DNA from: a virus
Strand: one strand, 5' to 3'
DNA: 20,059 nt
Virus record (IMG/VR): IMGVR_UViG_3300042356_000890
Span: 1 to 20,059 of that record
In this document: positions 7,188 to 17,128 of the stretch, in pieces
Numbering within the stretch: position 1 is the first letter of the stretch
How the letters are laid out: each line of letters opens with the position of its first letter
Notes under the pieces: generated by a model
Seen by the model: only the letters and a program-made list of their open reading frames with translations
Databases searched by the model: none
Told to the model about the DNA's origin: nothing
Translations under genes and position numbers: made by a program

Positions 7188-7519
7188 ACGCTTTACCACT
7201 TCAACGAGTGGATGGTGGCCGTGACTAGATTTGTTTTAGCCGACACCGAATGATGTAACGAGATGACGTTCGTAACGCTGCTTGTTTCTCTTACGCAACA
7301 GGGTCAGGTTCGGTCTTGGGTACTGATTGGTTGCAGGAAACATCTACCCACGTTTCCGTGTGTGAAATGCCCCGCACCATGCAACCGGTGTACAGCCCTG
7401 CTTGCCTCGCCTGTCTTCCCGACGGTAAGGACTTGTTCTGTTGCGAACTTGACTATAGCAGATGTGTATGCTTGTTTCTACTCAGTAAATGTAAAACTTG
7501 TTTAGAAGCGGGAAGTTTT

Positions 7520-8317
7520 GTGGATCGATTTAAATTTTATGTGGGGACAAACAACCCGTCGTGGTTGTGGAATGAAAACAATACGAACCCGCTGTTTGTT
7601 TCTGTTCGTCGGCTTCGTAAATACAAAAAGTTTCGACCTTCAGGTGTTTCTTGGTCTTGTGACAGTGGTGGCTTTACGGAGCTTTCTATTTTTGATAAGT
7701 GGGTTACACCGCCAGGTCAGTATGTTGAAGAACTTTACCGTATTACAGATGAGATTGGTTTGATGGATTGGGCTTCACCACAGGACTGGATGTGTGAACC
7801 GCACATGATTCAAAAAACAGGGAAGTCGATTGATGAGCATCAGCGTTTAACTTGCGAAAATTTTCTTGAGTTGCAAGGGTTAGCACCGGATCTTCCTATT
7901 ATTCCTGTCTTGCAGGGGTGGGATCCTGATGATTACAGGGTTCATTTAGATATGTATTTGGATTATGGGGTTGATCTTCGTGATTATCCCACCGTTGGTA
8001 TGGGGTCGTTTTGTCGTCGTGCAAACGTACAGGGCGTTAAACAGTTGGTGGAGGATTTGTCTGCTTACGGTCTAAAAATGCACGGGTTCGGGTTAAAGAA
8101 GGATGGGTTGAAACTTTTTCGTAATCATCTTGTGTCTTCTGATTCTATGGCTTGGTCTTTTACTGCTCGTACTGCAATGTGGCAGGCCATGAAGTTGGGT
8201 TGTGAAACAAAGTATTTGTGTGATCGCACGGATCATAAAGCTAGGAACTGTGGTGATTGTCATCGTTGGGCGATGATGTGGGCTGATGATGTAGCATCAA
8301 CACAGCAAAGGATGTAA
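7520..8317 (+). CDS. dpdA: DpdA-like 7-deazaguanine DNA transglycosylase
   Basis: A tRNA-guanine transglycosylase-related TIM-barrel protein of the phage DpdA type, which swaps guanine in DNA for a 7-deazaguanine such as preQ0 and so shields phage DNA from nucleases. Seen: KFYVGTNNPSWL near the start, W-S-CDSGGFTEL at 46-55 with the candidate catalytic D48, MDWASPQDWMCEP at 82-94, IIPVLQGWDPDDY at 127-139, VGMGSFCRR at 159-167, MHGFGLKK at 187-194 and SSDSMAWSF at 206-214 with a second candidate Asp. C228, C234, C244, C247 and H238/H248 could bind zinc as in the TGT family. GTG at 7520 (265 residues) is chosen because the barrel begins there and GCGGGAAG lies upstream; the frame is open back to 7316. 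The stop overlaps the terminase start. No preQ0 synthesis genes are visible here. Confidence 0.82.
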   Translation: MDRFKFYVGTNNPSWLWNENNTNPLFVSVRRLRKYKKFRPSGVSWSCDSGGFTELSIFDKWVTPPGQYVEELYRITDEIGLMDWASPQDWMCEPHMIQKTGKSIDEHQRLTCENFLELQGLAPDLPIIPVLQGWDPDDYRVHLDMYLDYGVDLRDYPTVGMGSFCRRANVQGVKQLVEDLSAYGLKMHGFGLKKDGLKLFRNHLVSSDSMAWSFTARTAMWQAMKLGCETKYLCDRTDHKARNCGDCHRWAMMWADDVASTQQRM

Positions 8318-10296
8318 TGGGTACTAAACGATCTGTCCCTCCTCAGGACAAAGCCAAGTTTTTTGCGTTGATCGCGTCGGGGCGTACCATCAAAGATGCG
8401 TGTGCTGAAACAGGGGTGCATTACAACACGGGTTCACGTTGGGTGAAAAAAGCGAAACTGTTGGAAGCGAACCGTAAAGAAGCGGCCCATAAGGTTTCGT
8501 CTGGTGCAGGATCAGGCGGTAGGCAATCTGTTGCACACCATAATTTTATGGATGCGATTGATTTGCCGTCAGTTATCCCGTATGAGCATTTGTGCGATAA
8601 CGCTAAACGCGGGTTGGAAGATTTTGATTTTTTCCGTAGCCACTATCTTGGGCGTGTCCCATCGCCGTGGCAGGTCGAAGCAGCAGTGCAACTTGTTGGG
8701 TTGTTGGAGTCTGAAGAAAAAGAATTTGTGGTGTTGAACGTTCCGCCTGGTGCGGGTAAGTCCACATTGTTTCACGATGTTGCGGTGTGGGCGATTGTTC
8801 GTAACCGGCGTGTTCGTGTGATGATTGGGTCGGTTTCTCAGAACATGGCGAAGATGTACTCTCGTCGTATCCGTGAAACGCTTGAGCGTGTGATGCCTAT
8901 TGAACCTGATCCGATGATGGTTCAGAAGGGGTTGGCTGTCAACGCGGAAGGCTGTCTAACGATTGACTATGGCAGGTTCAAACCTGTCGATAAGGGGGCG
9001 TTGTGGCGTTCAGAGGAGTTTGTTGTTGAACAAGAAGACGGAAACGGTTTGGATAACAAAGAACCAACAGTCCGAGCCTACGGTATTGAGGCAGAGTTCA
9101 TCGGCCACCGTGCCGACCTTTGCTTGTTTGACGATGTGGCCTCACCCGATAACGCCCGTGAAAGTGTGGCTCGCGACAAACTCCTTGAACGGTGGGACAA
9201 TGTGGCTGAAGCCCGATGCGACCCAGGTGGGTTGCTAGCTGTTATCGGGCAGCGTCTCGGTTCGGGTGATTTGTACGCTCATTGTCTTGCGAAGGAAACG
9301 TATGACATTGAAGAAGACATCAACTATGACGGTTCGGATGTGCAATCCCCTGAAGATGTTGAATCTGGTCAGCCTGTCCGACAGAAAAAATACAAGCACA
9401 TCATCTATAAAGCGTATTACGAAGAATTAGATACCGGTAAGGAATCTCGTTCGTTCAAATCGTTGCCGTACCCTGAAGGTCCGTTGCTTGACCCGAAGCG
9501 TCTCCCGTGGAAAGATTTGTCGTTTATCCGCTACAACAAACCTGACGTGTTTCAGGTGGTGTACCAACAGGAAGACCTTGATCTTGATGCTCGACTGGTG
9601 GACCGTACTTGGATTACTGGTGGCAAAGGAGCAGATGGGGTGGATTACCCTGGCTGTGTTGATAACGAACGCCAACCTGGGTATATCCCTGAAGGTTTAG
9701 CGCATCCGTGGGTGTCTATTTGTGCGGTTGACCCGTCACCAACAATGTTTTGGGCGTTTGTTTGGATTATTTACCAGCCTGAAACCCAGATATACCATGT
9801 GGTTGACCTTGAACGGGTGAAGTTGACCGCTGAAGAAGTCCTTGGATTTAACACTTCGACGGGGGAGTATTCAGGGTTGATGCACGAATGGCAGGAACGG
9901 TCCTACCAGATGGGTTATCCGATTAGCCATTGGGTTGTTGAGATCAATGCGGCACAGCGTTTCTTGTTGGCACACGATTTTGTGCGTCGCTGGCAGGCAA
10001 CTAACCGTGTGAACGTCATTTCTCATACCACTTCCCGTAACAAAGTTGACGAAAAGCTTGGTGTTGAGGCGTTGATTCCGCCGGTGATTAGGTCGGGGGC
10101 TATGCGGTTCCCTTCTATGCGTGGCAACTGGAAAACATTGGCGGCCCAGGATGAGTTGACTAAGTGGAGTCGAGATAAAAAGCACGGCACCGACATTGTG
10201 ATGGCGTTGTGGATGGCGATTTTGAATCTGCCTAATTTGACCCAGGCGAAGCCACCGCCGAGACAGTGGCGACCTTCGTGGTTGACAACCAGATAA
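8317..10296 (+). CDS. terL: Terminase large subunit with N-terminal helix-turn-helix
   Basis: 659 residues. Residues about 12-46 (GRTIKDACAETGVHYNTGSRW) form a helix-turn-helix of the kind seen in small terminase subunits. The ATPase follows: Walker A PPGAGKST at 143-150 and Walker B LCLFDD at 268-273. The C-terminal RNase H-like nuclease shows D472 (AVDPSP), E542 (VVEINAAQRF) and D626 (HGTDIVMALW), the expected acidic triad. This is the DNA packaging motor and genome-cutting enzyme. At 659 residues it is longer than a typical TerL, partly because of the HTH and an acidic insertion near 330-360. ATG overlaps the dpdA stop by one base and has AAAGGATGTA upstream. No separate small terminase gene is visible in the window. 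Confidence 0.94.
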   Translation: MGTKRSVPPQDKAKFFALIASGRTIKDACAETGVHYNTGSRWVKKAKLLEANRKEAAHKVSSGAGSGGRQSVAHHNFMDAIDLPSVIPYEHLCDNAKRGLEDFDFFRSHYLGRVPSPWQVEAAVQLVGLLESEEKEFVVLNVPPGAGKSTLFHDVAVWAIVRNRRVRVMIGSVSQNMAKMYSRRIRETLERVMPIEPDPMMVQKGLAVNAEGCLTIDYGRFKPVDKGALWRSEEFVVEQEDGNGLDNKEPTVRAYGIEAEFIGHRADLCLFDDVASPDNARESVARDKLLERWDNVAEARCDPGGLLAVIGQRLGSGDLYAHCLAKETYDIEEDINYDGSDVQSPEDVESGQPVRQKKYKHIIYKAYYEELDTGKESRSFKSLPYPEGPLLDPKRLPWKDLSFIRYNKPDVFQVVYQQEDLDLDARLVDRTWITGGKGADGVDYPGCVDNERQPGYIPEGLAHPWVSICAVDPSPTMFWAFVWIIYQPETQIYHVVDLERVKLTAEEVLGFNTSTGEYSGLMHEWQERSYQMGYPISHWVVEINAAQRFLLAHDFVRRWQATNRVNVISHTTSRNKVDEKLGVEALIPPVIRSGAMRFPSMRGNWKTLAAQDELTKWSRDKKHGTDIVMALWMAILNLPNLTQAKPPPRQWRPSWLTTR

Positions 10297-10308
10297 ATGT
10301 GTTATCTT
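10282..10308 (+). promoter_or_regulatory. Possible promoter before portal gene
   Basis: TTGACA (10282-10287), a 15-base spacer and TATCTT (10303-10308) occur at the end of terL and in the only sizeable gap (41 bases) of the late operon. The spacer is short for a sigma70 promoter, so this is tentative; it could give extra transcription of the virion genes. Confidence 0.35.
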
Positions 10309-10337
10309 AGGTTCGTCTTGGCTACCAAAGGTTTTGA

Positions 10338-12140
10338 ATGAAAACTGTTGAAGAAATCGTTGAACTGTACAAGGATCGTGTTGACACTCAAGGACCGATC
10401 CTTCGTCAGATGCGAGAAGTGCGACAGTTAGCAAATGGTGATGTCATTGTTCCGTTGAACGAATTGGACAGGAACACGAAATCTTCTGTGGCGAACCTGC
10501 TTGTTCAGGGTCTTGACCAGATGAGTATGCGTGTTGCTTCTACGATGCCGTCACCGTATTTTCCTGCTTTGCGTGAAGGTCAGGACCGTTCGATGAAACT
10601 GGCCCGTGACCGCAAGCGGGCAATGCTGGCTATTTGGGATCAGAACCGTATGTCTATGAAGATGCGTCAACGTGCGCGTCACCTTTTGGCGTACAGCAAT
10701 TCGCCTGTTTATTTGAAGCCGAACTTTGATAAGCGTCTTCCTGAGTGGCAGTTGCGTAACCCGTTGGATACTTTTGCTGCTCCACGGATTGACATTGATA
10801 ATCCTGTTCCGGACAATGTGATTTTTACGTATCACCGCCCGTACCGTTGGCTGATGCAAAACTACGGGGTACTGTTGAACGGTACGTTGCGTGTGGCGAA
10901 CCCAGGACAAGACACCCTGTTCACCATCCTTGAATACGTCTGCGCCAACGAAATCGTCACCATTGTGATGGGATCAGAAAAATCTTTCGACCCTCTAACA
11001 GGGCAAACCTTCCCAGGTCAGCAAGCAGTAGAACTGTCCCGTGTCATCAACCGCACAGGTATGCCACTGGTAGTTATGCCGCAACGCATCACCCTTGACA
11101 AACCCCGTGGACAATTCGACGGGTTGCTCGGAATGTATTACACCCGCGCCCGTTTGCAAGCCCTCACAGAAATCGCTATTGAACGAGGCATTTTCCCTGA
11201 CGAATACCTTGTGTCACGCCCAGGTGAAAACGCTGAAATTATCCAAATCGCAGACGGCAAAACAGGCCAACTTGGTGTAGTCAAAGGTGGCGACATTACA
11301 CAGCTACAAACAAACCCTGGCTACAAAACAGATGTGGCGTTGGACCGTTTGGAACGTCAAGAACGCCTAGAAGGTGCTATCCCCGCAGAGTTCGGTGGAG
11401 AATCCGGCACAAACATCCGTACAGGTCGCCGTGGCGAATCCATCCTGTCAGCAACCGTGGACTTCCGTGTACAAGAAGCGCAAGAACTGTTCGCATCTTC
11501 ACTTGTTGAAGAAGACAAAATCGCTATCGCTATCGAAAAAGCCTACTGGGGTAACGCATCAAAGTCGTTCTACATCCCAGGCACAGGCGGCGGAATGAAG
11601 GATTACACCCCGAACAAGATGTGGGAAACCGACTTCCATTATGTTTCATACTCCGCATCAGGGGCAGACATCAACAATCTTGTTATCAGTCTTGGACAAC
11701 GCTTAGGTACAGGCTTGATGTCTAAAGAATCAGCCCGTGAAGCAGACCCAATGATTAGCGATCCTGAGTTGGAACGTGACCGTATCGTGGCAGAAGCCAT
11801 CGAGTCGGCTTTGTTGCAGTCAGTACAGGCACAAGCCGCCGACCCGAACGGCCCATACCAACCAGATGATTTGGCTTTCATCGCTGAACAGGTAGCATCT
11901 AACAAGATGAGTTTGCCTCAAGCTATTCAAGCAGCGCAGAAACGCGCACAGGAACGACAGGCAACTCCCGCCCCGACGGGTGCGCCAGAAACAATGCCTG
12001 GTTTGTCACCTGCTGGTGTCGGTATGGAACAACCAATGGAAGCCCCTGCACCGTCAGGTATCGAAGGTCTTCTTGCACAACTAGGTGGTGGCGGTGGTGG
12101 TATGGCTCCGCCTGCTCCACCAATGGGAGGGATGCTGTAA
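10338..12140 (+). CDS. Portal protein
   Basis: 600 residues directly after the terminase, where the portal ring subunit is normally encoded. Seen: a helical N-terminus (VEEIVELYKDRVDTQGPIL), NLLVQGLDQMSMRVASTMPSPYF at about 53-75, a basic helix RDRKRAMLAIWDQNRMSMKM, LLAYSNSPVYLKPNF, the strand-rich middle, FPDEYLVSRPGENAEII near 290-306 and a long helical part with RTGRRGESILSATVDFRVQEAQELF. The last 60 residues are Pro/Gly/Met-rich and probably disordered. The portal forms the dodecameric DNA entry channel. Assigned by context and length more than by sharp motifs. Base composition changes abruptly near 10900 within the gene, from G/T-rich to A/C-rich. Ribosome site AAAGG lies 7 bases before ATG. 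Confidence 0.8.
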   Translation: MKTVEEIVELYKDRVDTQGPILRQMREVRQLANGDVIVPLNELDRNTKSSVANLLVQGLDQMSMRVASTMPSPYFPALREGQDRSMKLARDRKRAMLAIWDQNRMSMKMRQRARHLLAYSNSPVYLKPNFDKRLPEWQLRNPLDTFAAPRIDIDNPVPDNVIFTYHRPYRWLMQNYGVLLNGTLRVANPGQDTLFTILEYVCANEIVTIVMGSEKSFDPLTGQTFPGQQAVELSRVINRTGMPLVVMPQRITLDKPRGQFDGLLGMYYTRARLQALTEIAIERGIFPDEYLVSRPGENAEIIQIADGKTGQLGVVKGGDITQLQTNPGYKTDVALDRLERQERLEGAIPAEFGGESGTNIRTGRRGESILSATVDFRVQEAQELFASSLVEEDKIAIAIEKAYWGNASKSFYIPGTGGGMKDYTPNKMWETDFHYVSYSASGADINNLVISLGQRLGTGLMSKESAREADPMISDPELERDRIVAEAIESALLQSVQAQAADPNGPYQPDDLAFIAEQVASNKMSLPQAIQAAQKRAQERQATPAPTGAPETMPGLSPAGVGMEQPMEAPAPSGIEGLLAQLGGGGGGMAPPAPPMGGML

Positions 12141-12509
12141 ATGGCGAAGCAATACCCAAATCGTTCTGATCTTCGTGGTGGCAAAGTAGCGAAACAAACC
12201 GTTACCGGTCAAACCTATGGTCAGGCTACACAGCAGATGCAGGCACAGTCGGCTGTTCCTATGGCGCAATCCCCAACAGATAAACCTGTTGTAACCCCTG
12301 GTTCTCTTGGTGCTTTTGACCGCCCCACGGAACGCCCGATGGAACCTGTAACAGCGGGTGCTTCGTTTGGTCCTGGGCCTACACCACAATCACAGTTTCG
12401 TGTACCCACATCTGACCCTGTAGTAACAGAGTTACGTGCGTTGTTGGCGGCATACCCGTCTGACGAGTTAGCAGATATGTTGGATTCGTACATCCGTGAG
12501 GGCTACTAA
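12141..12509 (+). CDS. 122-residue virion-operon protein, unknown
   Basis: Starts immediately after the portal stop (TAAATG) and ends overlapping the next ATG by one base. The first 85 residues are Gln/Pro/Thr/Gly-rich with little predicted structure (SDLRGGKVAKQTVTGQ, then a Pro-rich stretch). Only the C-terminus (DPVVTELRALLAAYPSDEL and DMLDSYIREGY) looks helical. It may be a small scaffold-like or portal-associated protein. No family recognised; coupling shows it is made with the virion proteins. Confidence 0.75.
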   Translation: MAKQYPNRSDLRGGKVAKQTVTGQTYGQATQQMQAQSAVPMAQSPTDKPVVTPGSLGAFDRPTERPMEPVTAGASFGPGPTPQSQFRVPTSDPVVTELRALLAAYPSDELADMLDSYIREGY

Positions 12510-15500
12510 TGCCGTTTATTCAGGGTGACCCTGTAACACAGAACCAACGTTACGCATCGTTTGTTGAACAAGAAAAAGCAGATAAACAAGCACAACAGTC
12601 ATTGACTAAAGATGTTGCTGCCCGTGTGTCGCAAATCTATAAAGATGCACCGTACATCCCTGCGTCGGTTATTTTGTCTATGGCTAAATCTGGAACCAGT
12701 CCAGAAACCGTAGAGGCAATCAAGAAGACTGCCGCACAGCAAACCGCTAACCAGTTGGCACCGAACAAACCCAAGAAAAAGGGTTGGTTTCAGGAACTAA
12801 TTTACGACAATGTGAAGGCTGCTTCTCGATGGTCTTTTGCTGGTTTGTCCCTTGTACCCGATCTTGTACAAAACGCTGCTTCACAAGCTTTCTCAGCAAA
12901 CGACCCCGCTGGATTTGACGGATGGTTCAAGTCCACACAGTTAGGTACCTTGATGTCCAACACCAAGGAAGCCGGTGAAGGTTTCTTCCTTGGTGAAACC
13001 GCTATGGAAAAGCAAGCGGAACGCGCACGCCGAGTACGTGGAACTATCAACGGTTCAGCGTGGACCATTGGCCGTGGAGCCGCAGAGGTGGCATTTACCC
13101 CAGGTTCTAAACCGTATGCTTTTTTGTCAGGGTTTATTGATGCCGCAGTACAAATTGGTGCCGATCCAACACTCCCCGCTGGCAAAGCCCTGAAGACTGC
13201 GCGACTCGCCAAAGCAACATTGCCTGGTGTCGGTACAGCAGAAGAAATTGCTAACGCATCTCAACTTGCTAAAGGTCTAGCAGGTTTAAATAGTGCCGAA
13301 GGTATGTCTTTTCAAGCATCCAAGTTTGGTCAGTGGGCAACATCTGATCCACGCGCAAAGCGTTTGACATCTCGAATTGTTGAAATAGCTAGCGATGCAT
13401 CTAAAACAGTAGAAGAAAAAACTCTGTTTATGTTGGAAAACATTCCAGGTTTAGACCCTGTTATGGCTCGCGCATTTGCTGAAGCAGACGACCAAGCGAA
13501 AGTTCTTGGTTTGCTTGGTACAGCATCGGCTCGTTTGACAACAAACCCTGCTGATGTTTTGTTGCCTACAGATATCCGTGACATAAAACTTGCTCGACGC
13601 TTAGACCCACGATTTGATGATTCGGTAAAAGAACGTGTTGGTTTATACAGAAACTTTCGTGGTAAGTGGCTTCAAACAATGCCCAAAGGGACAGTAGTTA
13701 TCAACGGCACAGGAGCAGACAAAACACAGGCTGTTATGAACTACGCCCGTTATCTTCGTGGCTCAGGTTTAGCAGATGACAGCCAAGAATTCAAGACCGT
13801 CATGCAGAAAGTGGTGGAAGCGTATTCCAGCGCCGACCCTTCTATAGCCCGCGCATCCGCAAAGGAAGCATACGATTTACTTATTGAAACCGTATTTGTT
13901 TCTTTAGGTGGAAAATCAGCAGGTGCTAAACAAGCCGCTAAAGAAATTATTGGTGCAGCACGATCCGCTAAAGCACGTGTATTCAACATCAACGATGTAG
14001 GTAACGCAGATGATGGCGGTGCTTTACAGATGCTTCGTTCTGTTTTGCCTGAAGATGTATTTGACGACATACCACTTGATGTCCAAGACCGTCTCGTAAT
14101 CAACGGCCCAGGTGCGCTTATTGAACTAGCTGACGATGTTGAAGTTCTTCCTGATTTTCGTCGTATGCGAGCATTGGCGGGTAACCCTTGGTTGACACGC
14201 AACACAGCAGGTGGTCAACGTGCTGGCACAGTGATGGCTGAGTTTGTTCAAAACGAAATTTGGAAACCACTCACCTTGGCGACTGGCGGATACATGATGC
14301 GTAACATGATTGACGCACAAACCCGTATCGCCATGTCTGGTAGATCAGGATTGTTCAGCCATCCACAGGATTTCATCTTGTGGGTTCTTCGCAAGAAGGG
14401 CGCATTTGACATTACCGGTGAAGACTTCGGTGGTGTTGCTGGTGTATGGAATAAAGAACAAGACGAGTTTTGGCAAGCACTTACATTTGACCTGCATAAG
14501 AACTTGAATGATCCTGTTGCCGCTGAACAAAACCTGATTCGTAACGGAAACTTCTCTATCGTTGACCGTGGAGATGATGCCGTAGCCCACGTTACTGGTT
14601 ATGTCGATAACTTGGCTTTGATTCATACTGACCCTATTTTGTCGCGTGTAGCAAAACTAGGTCTTGAAGGTTTGGACCAACCAGCGCGTGTTCAGAAAAT
14701 CAAGGATTGGTTGACATCTCCTGAGAACAAAGAACTTCTTGGGCAGTTACGTAATTATTTTGCTGAAGGCGTGAAGTACACCGATCCTGTATCGGGTAAG
14801 ACAGGTCGCATCAGGATTGACCCTGCCGATTTAGACACTGCTGTTGATGCTTGGGTGGATAAACTTTCAGAGTTCCGTGTTGGAAGTATTGTCCGTGACA
14901 ACAAAGATTTGCGTGTTGTTTCTGCCTACAACAGGGTTCCCTTGACAACAATGGATGACGGCGGTAAAACAATTACTGCTGGCCCACGCAATATTGACAT
15001 CAACGACATTGATCCAAAAGACATCATCGACGGTGACGGCGGTATTGGTTCAGTTATCCGTCTTGAAGATGATGTTGAAGGTTTGATTATTGGCACGGTG
15101 GACACCCCAACAGGTATTGACCCGTTCACTGGTTTGCCTTCCACTAAACAGGATTATGTTGTCCAGCCTGTACACAATGGCCCTGCTTTCACTAAGGATG
15201 GTTTAGGTACACAGAATCTTCGCAATCTTCTTGACACTCTTGGCGAGGAAGGAAAACTCGCACAGAAGGTAAAGATTGCTCAACGCGGTACTACGGCTAA
15301 TACGGAACTTGGGCAACGTGCTTTGCAGGTGAAGAACAAGTTTGTTGATACTTTCTTTGTGAGCTTGTATGGCAAGGCGACACAGTTTCTTGAGAAGTCT
15401 CCGGTGTTCCGCCAGTCTTACTATCGTGAAGTGTTCAACAATGCTGACTTGTTGGCACCATCTGAAGCGGCGGCTTTGTTGAAGCGGGCTAATACTGAAG

Positions 15501-17128
15501 CCACAAAGTCTGGTATGAAACTTGCTAACTATGTTGGTGGCAAGGATGTTCTTGCTCGACTTAAAGAAGTTGCGGCATCAACATCTGACGCTATTGGGAC
15601 ATTGGAACAACTAGACGATTTTGCTAAAGCATCAGCATTGCGTCAAACAAAAGAACTGTTGTACAACGCCACAGAACGCTCCAACCTTGAAGACATATTC
15701 CGTATCATCATCCCGTTCGGTGGTGCCTGGAAAGAAGTTATGGGAACTTACGCCAAAGCAGTAGTCGAAGACCCAACCCGTCTCCGCAAAGCTCAACTTA
15801 TTTTTGACGGTGCAAGAAAGTTTGACCCCGACAACGACGGTCAAGGGTTCTTCTATCGTGACGCAACTACCGGTGAATACTCGTTCAACTTCCCATTGTC
15901 AGGTGACATTGCTCAACTATTGACAGGGCAAGATGTACCACTTCAAGCACCCGTACAACGTTTGTCTATTGGTCTTGGAGTTGTCCCGTCTATCGGGCCG
16001 ATGGCTCAAGTTGCAGCATCAAAAATTATTCCCGACACCCCCGCCACTGACGACATCATCGGGTTCCTTCTTCCATACGGAAGAAAAACAGACTTCAACC
16101 TGTTGCCATTGTGGGCTAAGAAAATGCAAGAAGCTTGGGAAGGCAACACTCAAAACCTGCAAACCGTGTACGGCAACACCTACATTGAGACGCTTCGCGC
16201 ATTGTCGGCTTCAGGTGAATACGACCTTGCCGATCCGAACGAGCAAGAACAACTGTATGCCGACGCTAAAGGTAAAGCACGTTGGCTTACTTTCTTACGT
16301 GCAGCAGGTCAGTTCATCGGACCAACTTCTCCATCTCCTGAGTTCAAGATTGCCACCAAAGAAGGCGACGTGTATGGAACACAGTTGGTGAAAGAGTTTC
16401 AGAAACTACAGGCCAACAACTACGACACGGCTGTATCCGAGTTTCTTCGTATCTACGGCAACGACGCTTTGTTATACATTTCCAACAAAACAGAATCAGT
16501 TGCCGGTGGTTTAGAAGCAACCGAAGATTTTGGTGATTGGGAACGAGGCGAAGGAGAAGGTCTTATTGACCAATACCCTGATGTCGCTGGCTTTATGGCT
16601 CCAGGTGGAGACAACTTCTCATTTGAGGTGTGGTCACGGCAGGTATCTAAGGGTCGTCGTCGTCGCCTGTCGGATCGTGAGATTGTCGAGTTGGCACAGT
16701 ACCGTGCAGCATCGGCACAGTATCGAGCATTGCGGGACAAACTGCCTCCCCGCCCAACAGCAGATCAAAAACGTTGGCTTCGCCAGTGGCGTGTCAAACT
16801 GAACAAGGAATACCCTGGTTTTCCTGTGGTGGCAGAGTTCAACCCTGGTGAGTTCCCGAAGAAATTGGAACAGTTGGGTCGTCTTGTGCAGGATAACCGT
16901 CTCGCAGATAACGATGTGGCTGACGCAACCCGTCAGTATTTGCAGGCGCGTGACGCGGCAGTTGAGCGTTATGTTCAGGCTGGTGGCGCGGCAGGTGGTT
17001 TCTCTACTGCTGTGGCTGCGGCCCCATTGCGCGACTGGCTTGCCGGTATCGGCAAAGCTTTGAAAGAGGATACGCCTGAGTTCGCTCGTTTGTATGAAAG
17101 ACTGTTATCAACAGAGGTAGAAGAATGA
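12509..17128 (+). CDS. Giant 1539-residue internal virion/ejection-type protein
   Basis: The largest gene of the window. The N-terminus is helical (VEQEKADKQAQQSLTKDVA), with a GWFQELIYDNVKAASRWSFAG segment near 91. Residues about 580-610 (LATGGYMMRNMIDAQTRIAM, then FILWVLRKKG) are weakly hydrophobic. An Asp-rich beta region lies near 825-875 (NIDINDIDPKDIIDGDGG). Residues about 1057-1080 (SNLEDIFRIIIPFGGAWKEV) form a motif I associate with large phage virion proteins. Basic GRRRRLSD lies near 1380 and an Ala-rich end follows. No catalytic motif is evident. Size and position after the portal suggest a protein packaged in the head or ejected with DNA; this is inference. Its end overlaps the next gene by 4 nt. 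Confidence 0.8.
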   Translation: MPFIQGDPVTQNQRYASFVEQEKADKQAQQSLTKDVAARVSQIYKDAPYIPASVILSMAKSGTSPETVEAIKKTAAQQTANQLAPNKPKKKGWFQELIYDNVKAASRWSFAGLSLVPDLVQNAASQAFSANDPAGFDGWFKSTQLGTLMSNTKEAGEGFFLGETAMEKQAERARRVRGTINGSAWTIGRGAAEVAFTPGSKPYAFLSGFIDAAVQIGADPTLPAGKALKTARLAKATLPGVGTAEEIANASQLAKGLAGLNSAEGMSFQASKFGQWATSDPRAKRLTSRIVEIASDASKTVEEKTLFMLENIPGLDPVMARAFAEADDQAKVLGLLGTASARLTTNPADVLLPTDIRDIKLARRLDPRFDDSVKERVGLYRNFRGKWLQTMPKGTVVINGTGADKTQAVMNYARYLRGSGLADDSQEFKTVMQKVVEAYSSADPSIARASAKEAYDLLIETVFVSLGGKSAGAKQAAKEIIGAARSAKARVFNINDVGNADDGGALQMLRSVLPEDVFDDIPLDVQDRLVINGPGALIELADDVEVLPDFRRMRALAGNPWLTRNTAGGQRAGTVMAEFVQNEIWKPLTLATGGYMMRNMIDAQTRIAMSGRSGLFSHPQDFILWVLRKKGAFDITGEDFGGVAGVWNKEQDEFWQALTFDLHKNLNDPVAAEQNLIRNGNFSIVDRGDDAVAHVTGYVDNLALIHTDPILSRVAKLGLEGLDQPARVQKIKDWLTSPENKELLGQLRNYFAEGVKYTDPVSGKTGRIRIDPADLDTAVDAWVDKLSEFRVGSIVRDNKDLRVVSAYNRVPLTTMDDGGKTITAGPRNIDINDIDPKDIIDGDGGIGSVIRLEDDVEGLIIGTVDTPTGIDPFTGLPSTKQDYVVQPVHNGPAFTKDGLGTQNLRNLLDTLGEEGKLAQKVKIAQRGTTANTELGQRALQVKNKFVDTFFVSLYGKATQFLEKSPVFRQSYYREVFNNADLLAPSEAAALLKRANTEATKSGMKLANYVGGKDVLARLKEVAASTSDAIGTLEQLDDFAKASALRQTKELLYNATERSNLEDIFRIIIPFGGAWKEVMGTYAKAVVEDPTRLRKAQLIFDGARKFDPDNDGQGFFYRDATTGEYSFNFPLSGDIAQLLTGQDVPLQAPVQRLSIGLGVVPSIGPMAQVAASKIIPDTPATDDIIGFLLPYGRKTDFNLLPLWAKKMQEAWEGNTQNLQTVYGNTYIETLRALSASGEYDLADPNEQEQLYADAKGKARWLTFLRAAGQFIGPTSPSPEFKIATKEGDVYGTQLVKEFQKLQANNYDTAVSEFLRIYGNDALLYISNKTESVAGGLEATEDFGDWERGEGEGLIDQYPDVAGFMAPGGDNFSFEVWSRQVSKGRRRRLSDREIVELAQYRAASAQYRALRDKLPPRPTADQKRWLRQWRVKLNKEYPGFPVVAEFNPGEFPKKLEQLGRLVQDNRLADNDVADATRQYLQARDAAVERYVQAGGAAGGFSTAVAAAPLRDWLAGIGKALKEDTPEFARLYERLLSTEVEE

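Follow-up and report, generated by a model that had tools for sequence, protein, structure and literature searches.

Among phages that encode DpdA, those without preQ0 genes are the largest class known (PMC6884629). That is to say, DpdA without a base supply is the commonest arrangement of this enzyme in phages, yet one tested case is unmodified, which is an open puzzle. When two DpdA-only phages were analysed by mass spectrometry, no modification was found in Orion and trace dADG was found in Salmonella phage 7-11, and the authors of that study considered that DpdA-only proteins may have diverged functionally (PMC6884629). As for phages with a pathway of their own, the DNA of Rosebush contains about 28% dPreQ0 at G, and dpdA of Escherichia phage CAjan is essential for the dPreQ0 in CAjan DNA (PMC6884629). 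The CAjan gene belongs to an early-type cluster with folE, queD, queE, queC and a preQ0 transporter. In CRB2 (cluster B), DpdA and the que genes are close to the terminase genes (PMC6392294). In addition, the arrangement gp04-gp03-gp02-TerL of Rhodococcus phage ReqiPine5 brings a VUT-type membrane protein, a DpdA-like protein and a PAPS reductase beside TerL, the DpdA-like protein being of PHROG 15826 type rather than PF23859 and the genes lying on the strand opposite TerL. Given CRB2 and ReqiPine5, a DpdA near the terminase is therefore not new.

The window, i.e., the whole 20,059-nt stretch of viral DNA analysed here, comes from a freshwater-type phage, and its features are collected in Table 1. 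The ORF in front of terL is a phage DpdA, a further member of the known class. Its closest described counterparts are found in the DpdA-only mycobacteriophages (Orion/Phipps gp20, Validus gp43 and Peanam gp41), whose DpdA is of the same PF23859 type and 39-45% identical (39% for gp20 of Phipps, a cluster relative of Orion), and which also have no preQ0 pathway (PMC6884629). In these phages, however, dpdA is surrounded by tail genes or adjoins the integrase gene, whereas that of the window is next to terL; moreover, Orion, whose DNA is unmodified, has a different host. The window resembles CRB2 in having DpdA near the terminase, but both Rosebush and CRB2 encode preQ0 enzymes, of which none was found in the contigs of the window phage, and its dpdA is not part of an early-type cluster as in CAjan. 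In bacterial dpd systems dpdA is accompanied by partner genes such as dpdB, while the neighbours recognised in the window are phage genes.

Table 1. Features around dpdA in the window (all positions are those of the window).
Feature	Position	Strand	Basis or description
Structured RNA-like element of about 200 nt, head of the packaging operon, left border of the slot	7255..7461	+	covariance model, 211 bits (its training set included the near-identical copy of L002)
SD-like GGGAAG, upstream of the dpdA GTG	7510..7515	+	sequence reading
dpdA	7520..8317	+	TGT-like 7-deazaguanine DNA transglycosylase (predicted), GTG start, 265 aa
SD-like AAAGGA for terL, within dpdA	8307..8312	+	sequence reading
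TAATG junction, one-base overlap of dpdA stop and terL start	8315..8319	+	sequence reading (dpdA TAA at 8315-8317, terL ATG from 8317)
terL, large terminase, 659 aa, right border of the slot	8317..10296	+	PHROG 38, 8.7e-62
portal protein	10338..12140	+	PHROG 104, 1.6e-18

The first-pass annotation had recognised a TGT-like DpdA from the motifs DSGGF, LQGWDP and VGMGSF, and had proposed structure prediction or a profile search as the check; the motifs are present (residues 48-52, 131-136 and 159-164, respectively), both checks have been carried out, and the assignment is upheld. Pfam PF23859 (DpdA) matches residues 5-259 with an E-value of 1.5e-63 (214.9 bits against a cut-off of 27), and PHROG 1279 matches with 4.3e-70. 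The AlphaFold model, built from 16 relatives, has a pLDDT of 88.7 and a pTM of 0.87, and the predicted fold is a TGT-like barrel. The best Foldseek matches of the model are the TGTs of Z. mobilis (5.9e-6); after re-alignment the top solved structure is 7ui4, the DNA preQ0 insertase DpdA (Z 17.6 over 242 residues, 3.9 Å), with which the tRNA-guanine transglycosylases tie (Z 17.6 to about 17). The TGT-like fold is thus common to all of them, although 7ui4 is a crystal chain of 413 residues and only 13% identical to the 265-residue protein of the window. A sequence search of the PDB gave no true relative, and the protein itself was unmatched in PADLOC.

TGT chemistry uses two catalytic aspartates and proceeds by base exchange through a covalent intermediate. 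In the window protein, D48 (DSGGF), H188 (HGFG) and D208 (DSMAW), which we take from knowledge of TGTs to be the catalytic Asp residues and a conserved His, are invariant in an alignment of 18 relatives, and among 115 homologues DSG[GA]F is present in 114, H[GA]FG in 115 and DS.[AS]W in 114. The CAjan protein is so diverged that BLASTP gives no full alignment, but it shares DSG[GA]F, K[LM]H[AG]FG and DS..W with it. A C-terminal pattern resembling C-x-H-x-C-x2-C, a putative zinc-binding cluster recognised by regular expression only, is also found in the window protein and 74 of the 115 homologues. The dN/dS of dpdA is 0.03-0.11, and since this is purifying selection, the gene is not a chance ORF. 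It could still be asked whether the substrate is tRNA, or the base one other than preQ0, so that the enzyme would be a tRNA modifier of host takeover. The equal fold scores of the tRNA enzymes, the label of PHROG 1279 (queuine tRNA-ribosyltransferase) and the functional divergence of DpdA-only proteins, considered open (PMC6884629), are in keeping with such a substrate; however, the family model that matches is that of the DNA enzyme DpdA, and DNA methylases are both the neighbours of dpdA (within 2.5 kb at 7 of the 27 loci in phages and 16 of the 80 in bacteria) and its alternates in front of terL, so we regard tRNA or another base as improbable and DNA as the probable substrate.

The position of dpdA is best understood from the region between the RNA-like element and terL, which behaves as an exchange slot. 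In L034, terL is 98.2% identical in DNA to that of the window and the same element lies upstream, but dam takes the place of dpdA; conversely, L007 and L020 carry a dpdA almost identical to that of the window beside a terL that is 81% identical in protein. The breakpoints of the exchange are the end of the element and exactly the ATG of terL. Such near-isogenic pairs with dpdA or dam are natural controls. In relatives with a different modification gene at this place, the element usually precedes it. Among 116 distinct upstream regions of terL, each at least 1.2 kb long, 20 contain modification-type genes: DpdA in 8, N4/N6 methylase in 5, Dam in 4, VUT plus a DpdA-like protein in 2 and a PAPS-reductase-like protein in 1; the others contain mostly small basic proteins or nothing recognised. 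In the 38 long contigs, all matches of PF23859, Dam and N6_N4 are in or near the slot, while C5 methylases, present in 17 of the 38, are outside it where checked (e.g., in L007 and L008, where they lie upstream by about 7 kb). Therefore, what is conserved looks like a slot between the element and terL, a place of exchange and not a fixed machine of modification and packaging, at which phages would trade whole DNA-protection chemistries at one spot. The combination of structured element, exchangeable modification slot and terL is a new variation on a known arrangement.

The left border of the slot is itself conserved. By sequence profile, the element is found in 191 of 235 loci of the terL family, where it precedes terL by 15 to about 1900 bp (the L002 copy is at 9735-9943). 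In an alignment of 36 sequences, 97.0% of the cells pair, against 25-46% in slid controls; both sides change in 19 of the 25 pairs of the element, and cells of this kind number 207, compared with 66 in shuffles. From a subset of 25 sequences, a longer fold was obtained that is closed by a UGCU/AGCA stem. G-U pairs are common in the element, and therefore RNA is favoured over DNA. Rfam gave no match for 7255-7461, and this covarying element, which stands first in the packaging operon, is a candidate for a new RNA family and may act as a leader, an antiterminator, a packaging RNA or a cos/pac-linked site. A wider proposal would be that the slot is dedicated to interchangeable protections of unrelated chemistry (7-deazaguanine, by DpdA or by a transporter plus DpdA-like enzyme, N6-adenine, N4/N6 methylation, and a PAPS-reductase-like system) and that an undescribed structured RNA governs late/packaging expression, so that modification would begin together with packaging; we hold this proposal tentatively, with rather more doubt than confidence.

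Downstream of the slot, the portal gene at 10338..12140 indicates a packaging/structural operon, and because the ORFs after dpdA are those of TerL and the portal, dpdA heads the rightward packaging genes. Late expression of dpdA is probable from this position, and the overlap of its stop with the start of terL means that both are probably translated from one late mRNA; a scan for consensus promoters and terminators gave no excess over shuffled sequence. The N-terminal part of TerL (window 8317-8470) is HTH-like (HTH_23, 22.8 against a cut-off of 24.6 bits), and is possibly a fused DNA-binding part of the small-terminase type. The portal gene and a small ORF are followed at 12509-17128 by a gene for a protein of 1539 aa, which has no convincing match in Pfam or PHROG. 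At the other end of the window, a 138-aa ORF (45-461) resembles a secreted transglycosylase/Rpf-type domain and has no PHROG match.

The one-base overlap reported in the first-pass annotation is real, but its phrase "fused by translation" is correct only for the stop and start codons, since there is no fusion protein. Its further suggestion that a modification step coupled to packaging would be unusual retains the TAATG as its basis and is weakened in two ways: DpdA near the terminase has already been published, and the overlap is limited to the lineage of the window and one lineage with the same dpdA cassette. A small gene separates dpdA and terL in L008 (DpdA 84% identical), among close relatives dpdA may lie 290 bp from terL, and in L022 a gap of about 120 bp lies between the two genes; L023-L026 carry dpdA in antisense orientation to terL, although in L023-L025 the antisense gene is still located between the element and terL. 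Given these gapped and antisense arrangements, it is the location that is conserved, in part of the family, and not the TAATG. The next closest DpdA proteins (L009-L013, 68-70% identical) are encoded next to Dam and/or C5 methylase genes, and near them no relative of the window terL was found. In the 105-kb phage contig L012, Dam, C5 methylase and dpdA are consecutive (8224-10783). A fixed coupling of terL and dpdA as a general rule was considered and rejected, dpdA being gapped, antisense or elsewhere in relatives. In its strict form, coupling would mean that DpdA and TerL are produced in a fixed ratio and that the DNA is modified on entering the motor. The TAATG is compatible with this, and so is the tendency of forward-facing modification genes in the slot, unrelated as they are, to abut or overlap terL (DpdA +1, Dam +11, N4/N6 methylase +5, DpdA-like +11, PAPS-like 0); the small proteins that are common in the slot typically stop 10-15 bases before it. 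But the separated and reversed genes of the relatives speak against it, as does the location of DpdA in other phages with replication or unrelated genes, and strict coupling is very improbable.

As had been noted from the window, folE, queD, queE and queC are not nearby, and the wider search agrees: models of QueC, QueD and FolE had no match in 25 related contigs, in which controls matched, and radical SAM (QueE) had none in 10, both sets including a contig of 25.7 kb that shares 99.98% identity with the first 10.3 kb of the window, as well as dpdA relatives of about 39 kb; the contigs may be incomplete, but two dpdA relatives reach this length. The preQ0/G+ pathway of folE, queD, queE and queC is thus lacking in the near-identical and related contigs, and the window phage fits the DpdA-only class as judged on QueC, QueD, FolE and radical SAM. 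The YhhQ/VUT transporter family is likewise absent from 24 of the 25 related contigs, the exception being L046. It has been reported that YhhQ/QPTR (COG1738, PF02592) imports preQ0 and preQ1 (PMC5372724, PMC11130926); Hutinet et al. found YhhQ in some phages, uncorrelated with any group, and GATOR-GC puts its frequency in bacterial dpd islands at about 9%.

A genome scan gave 203 relatives of the window DpdA, mostly in Actinomycetota. The bacterial dpdA genes are accompanied by those of tyrosine integrase, FtsK/TraB-like, primase-polymerase-like and SSB proteins, and by this reading of the sequence by eye the loci appear to be integrative elements. In 18 of 80 bacterial loci a VUT/YhhQ-family gene is located 27-125 bp upstream of dpdA on the same strand, and loci with this pairing are spread over several separate parts of the DpdA tree. 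The loci with this gene order include L145, L146, L157, L162, L176 and L182. At the level of gene order, this supports salvage of an imported base in this DpdA subfamily and offers a testable answer to the puzzle of the missing base supply; the window phage would have to rely on an importer of its host.

Taken together, dpdA of the window probably encodes a functional, exchangeable anti-restriction enzyme that uses a host-made or imported 7-deazaguanine. Once the phage DNA has been replicated, and before it is packaged, DpdA would exchange some of its guanines for a 7-deazaguanine base, which would protect the DNA against host restriction; the base would not be made by the phage, but would come from the host or be imported by a host transporter of the YhhQ/QPTR type. 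The gene travels as an exchangeable cassette between the structured element and terL, and its coupling to terL would be incidental and unnecessary for function. Against this account stand the unmodified DNA of the DpdA-only phage Orion, the contigs of the window phage with no transporter, and the tie between DpdA and TGT in fold. It may alternatively be supposed that dpdA is conditionally useful cargo, i.e., that the enzyme is intact but the usual host has no base, so that the DNA is normally unmodified and the gene pays only where preQ0 is present. The host in which Orion DNA is unmodified has no queuosine genes at all (PMC6884629), the contigs of the lineage contain neither transporter nor synthesis genes, and dpdA comes and goes by exchange between near-identical phages, all of which suits such cargo. 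The purifying selection on dpdA, however, is against it, and relatives with a YhhQ-family transporter and a DpdA-like gene in the same slot suggest that base supply matters; although it deserves some weight, we consider conditional cargo unlikely and retain the functional anti-restriction enzyme as the preferred explanation.

The slot of L046 (3440-4577) contains the gene of a YhhQ/VUT-family membrane protein and, after it, that of a DpdA-like protein (PHROG 15826), which overlaps terL. The model of the DpdA-like protein is a barrel that matches TGT (Z 13.7) and pyruvate kinases (Z up to 14.8) about equally, and the protein is a candidate DpdA on the basis of GenBank labels and its VUT neighbour. 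The pair of VUT and DpdA-like genes recurs in mycobacterial, Arthrobacter and Rhodococcus phages. A PAPS-reductase-like gene recurs near DpdA or in the DpdA slot (L081:1369-2256, L111:4002-5093 and L342:4694-5611), the cases being the terL slot of L081, Streptomyces phage Gilgamesh and ReqiPine5, and this suggests a role in DNA modification. As for the host, a genome scan with the TerL alignment confirmed nothing, and a WhiB-like gene in the window hints at an Actinomycetota host.
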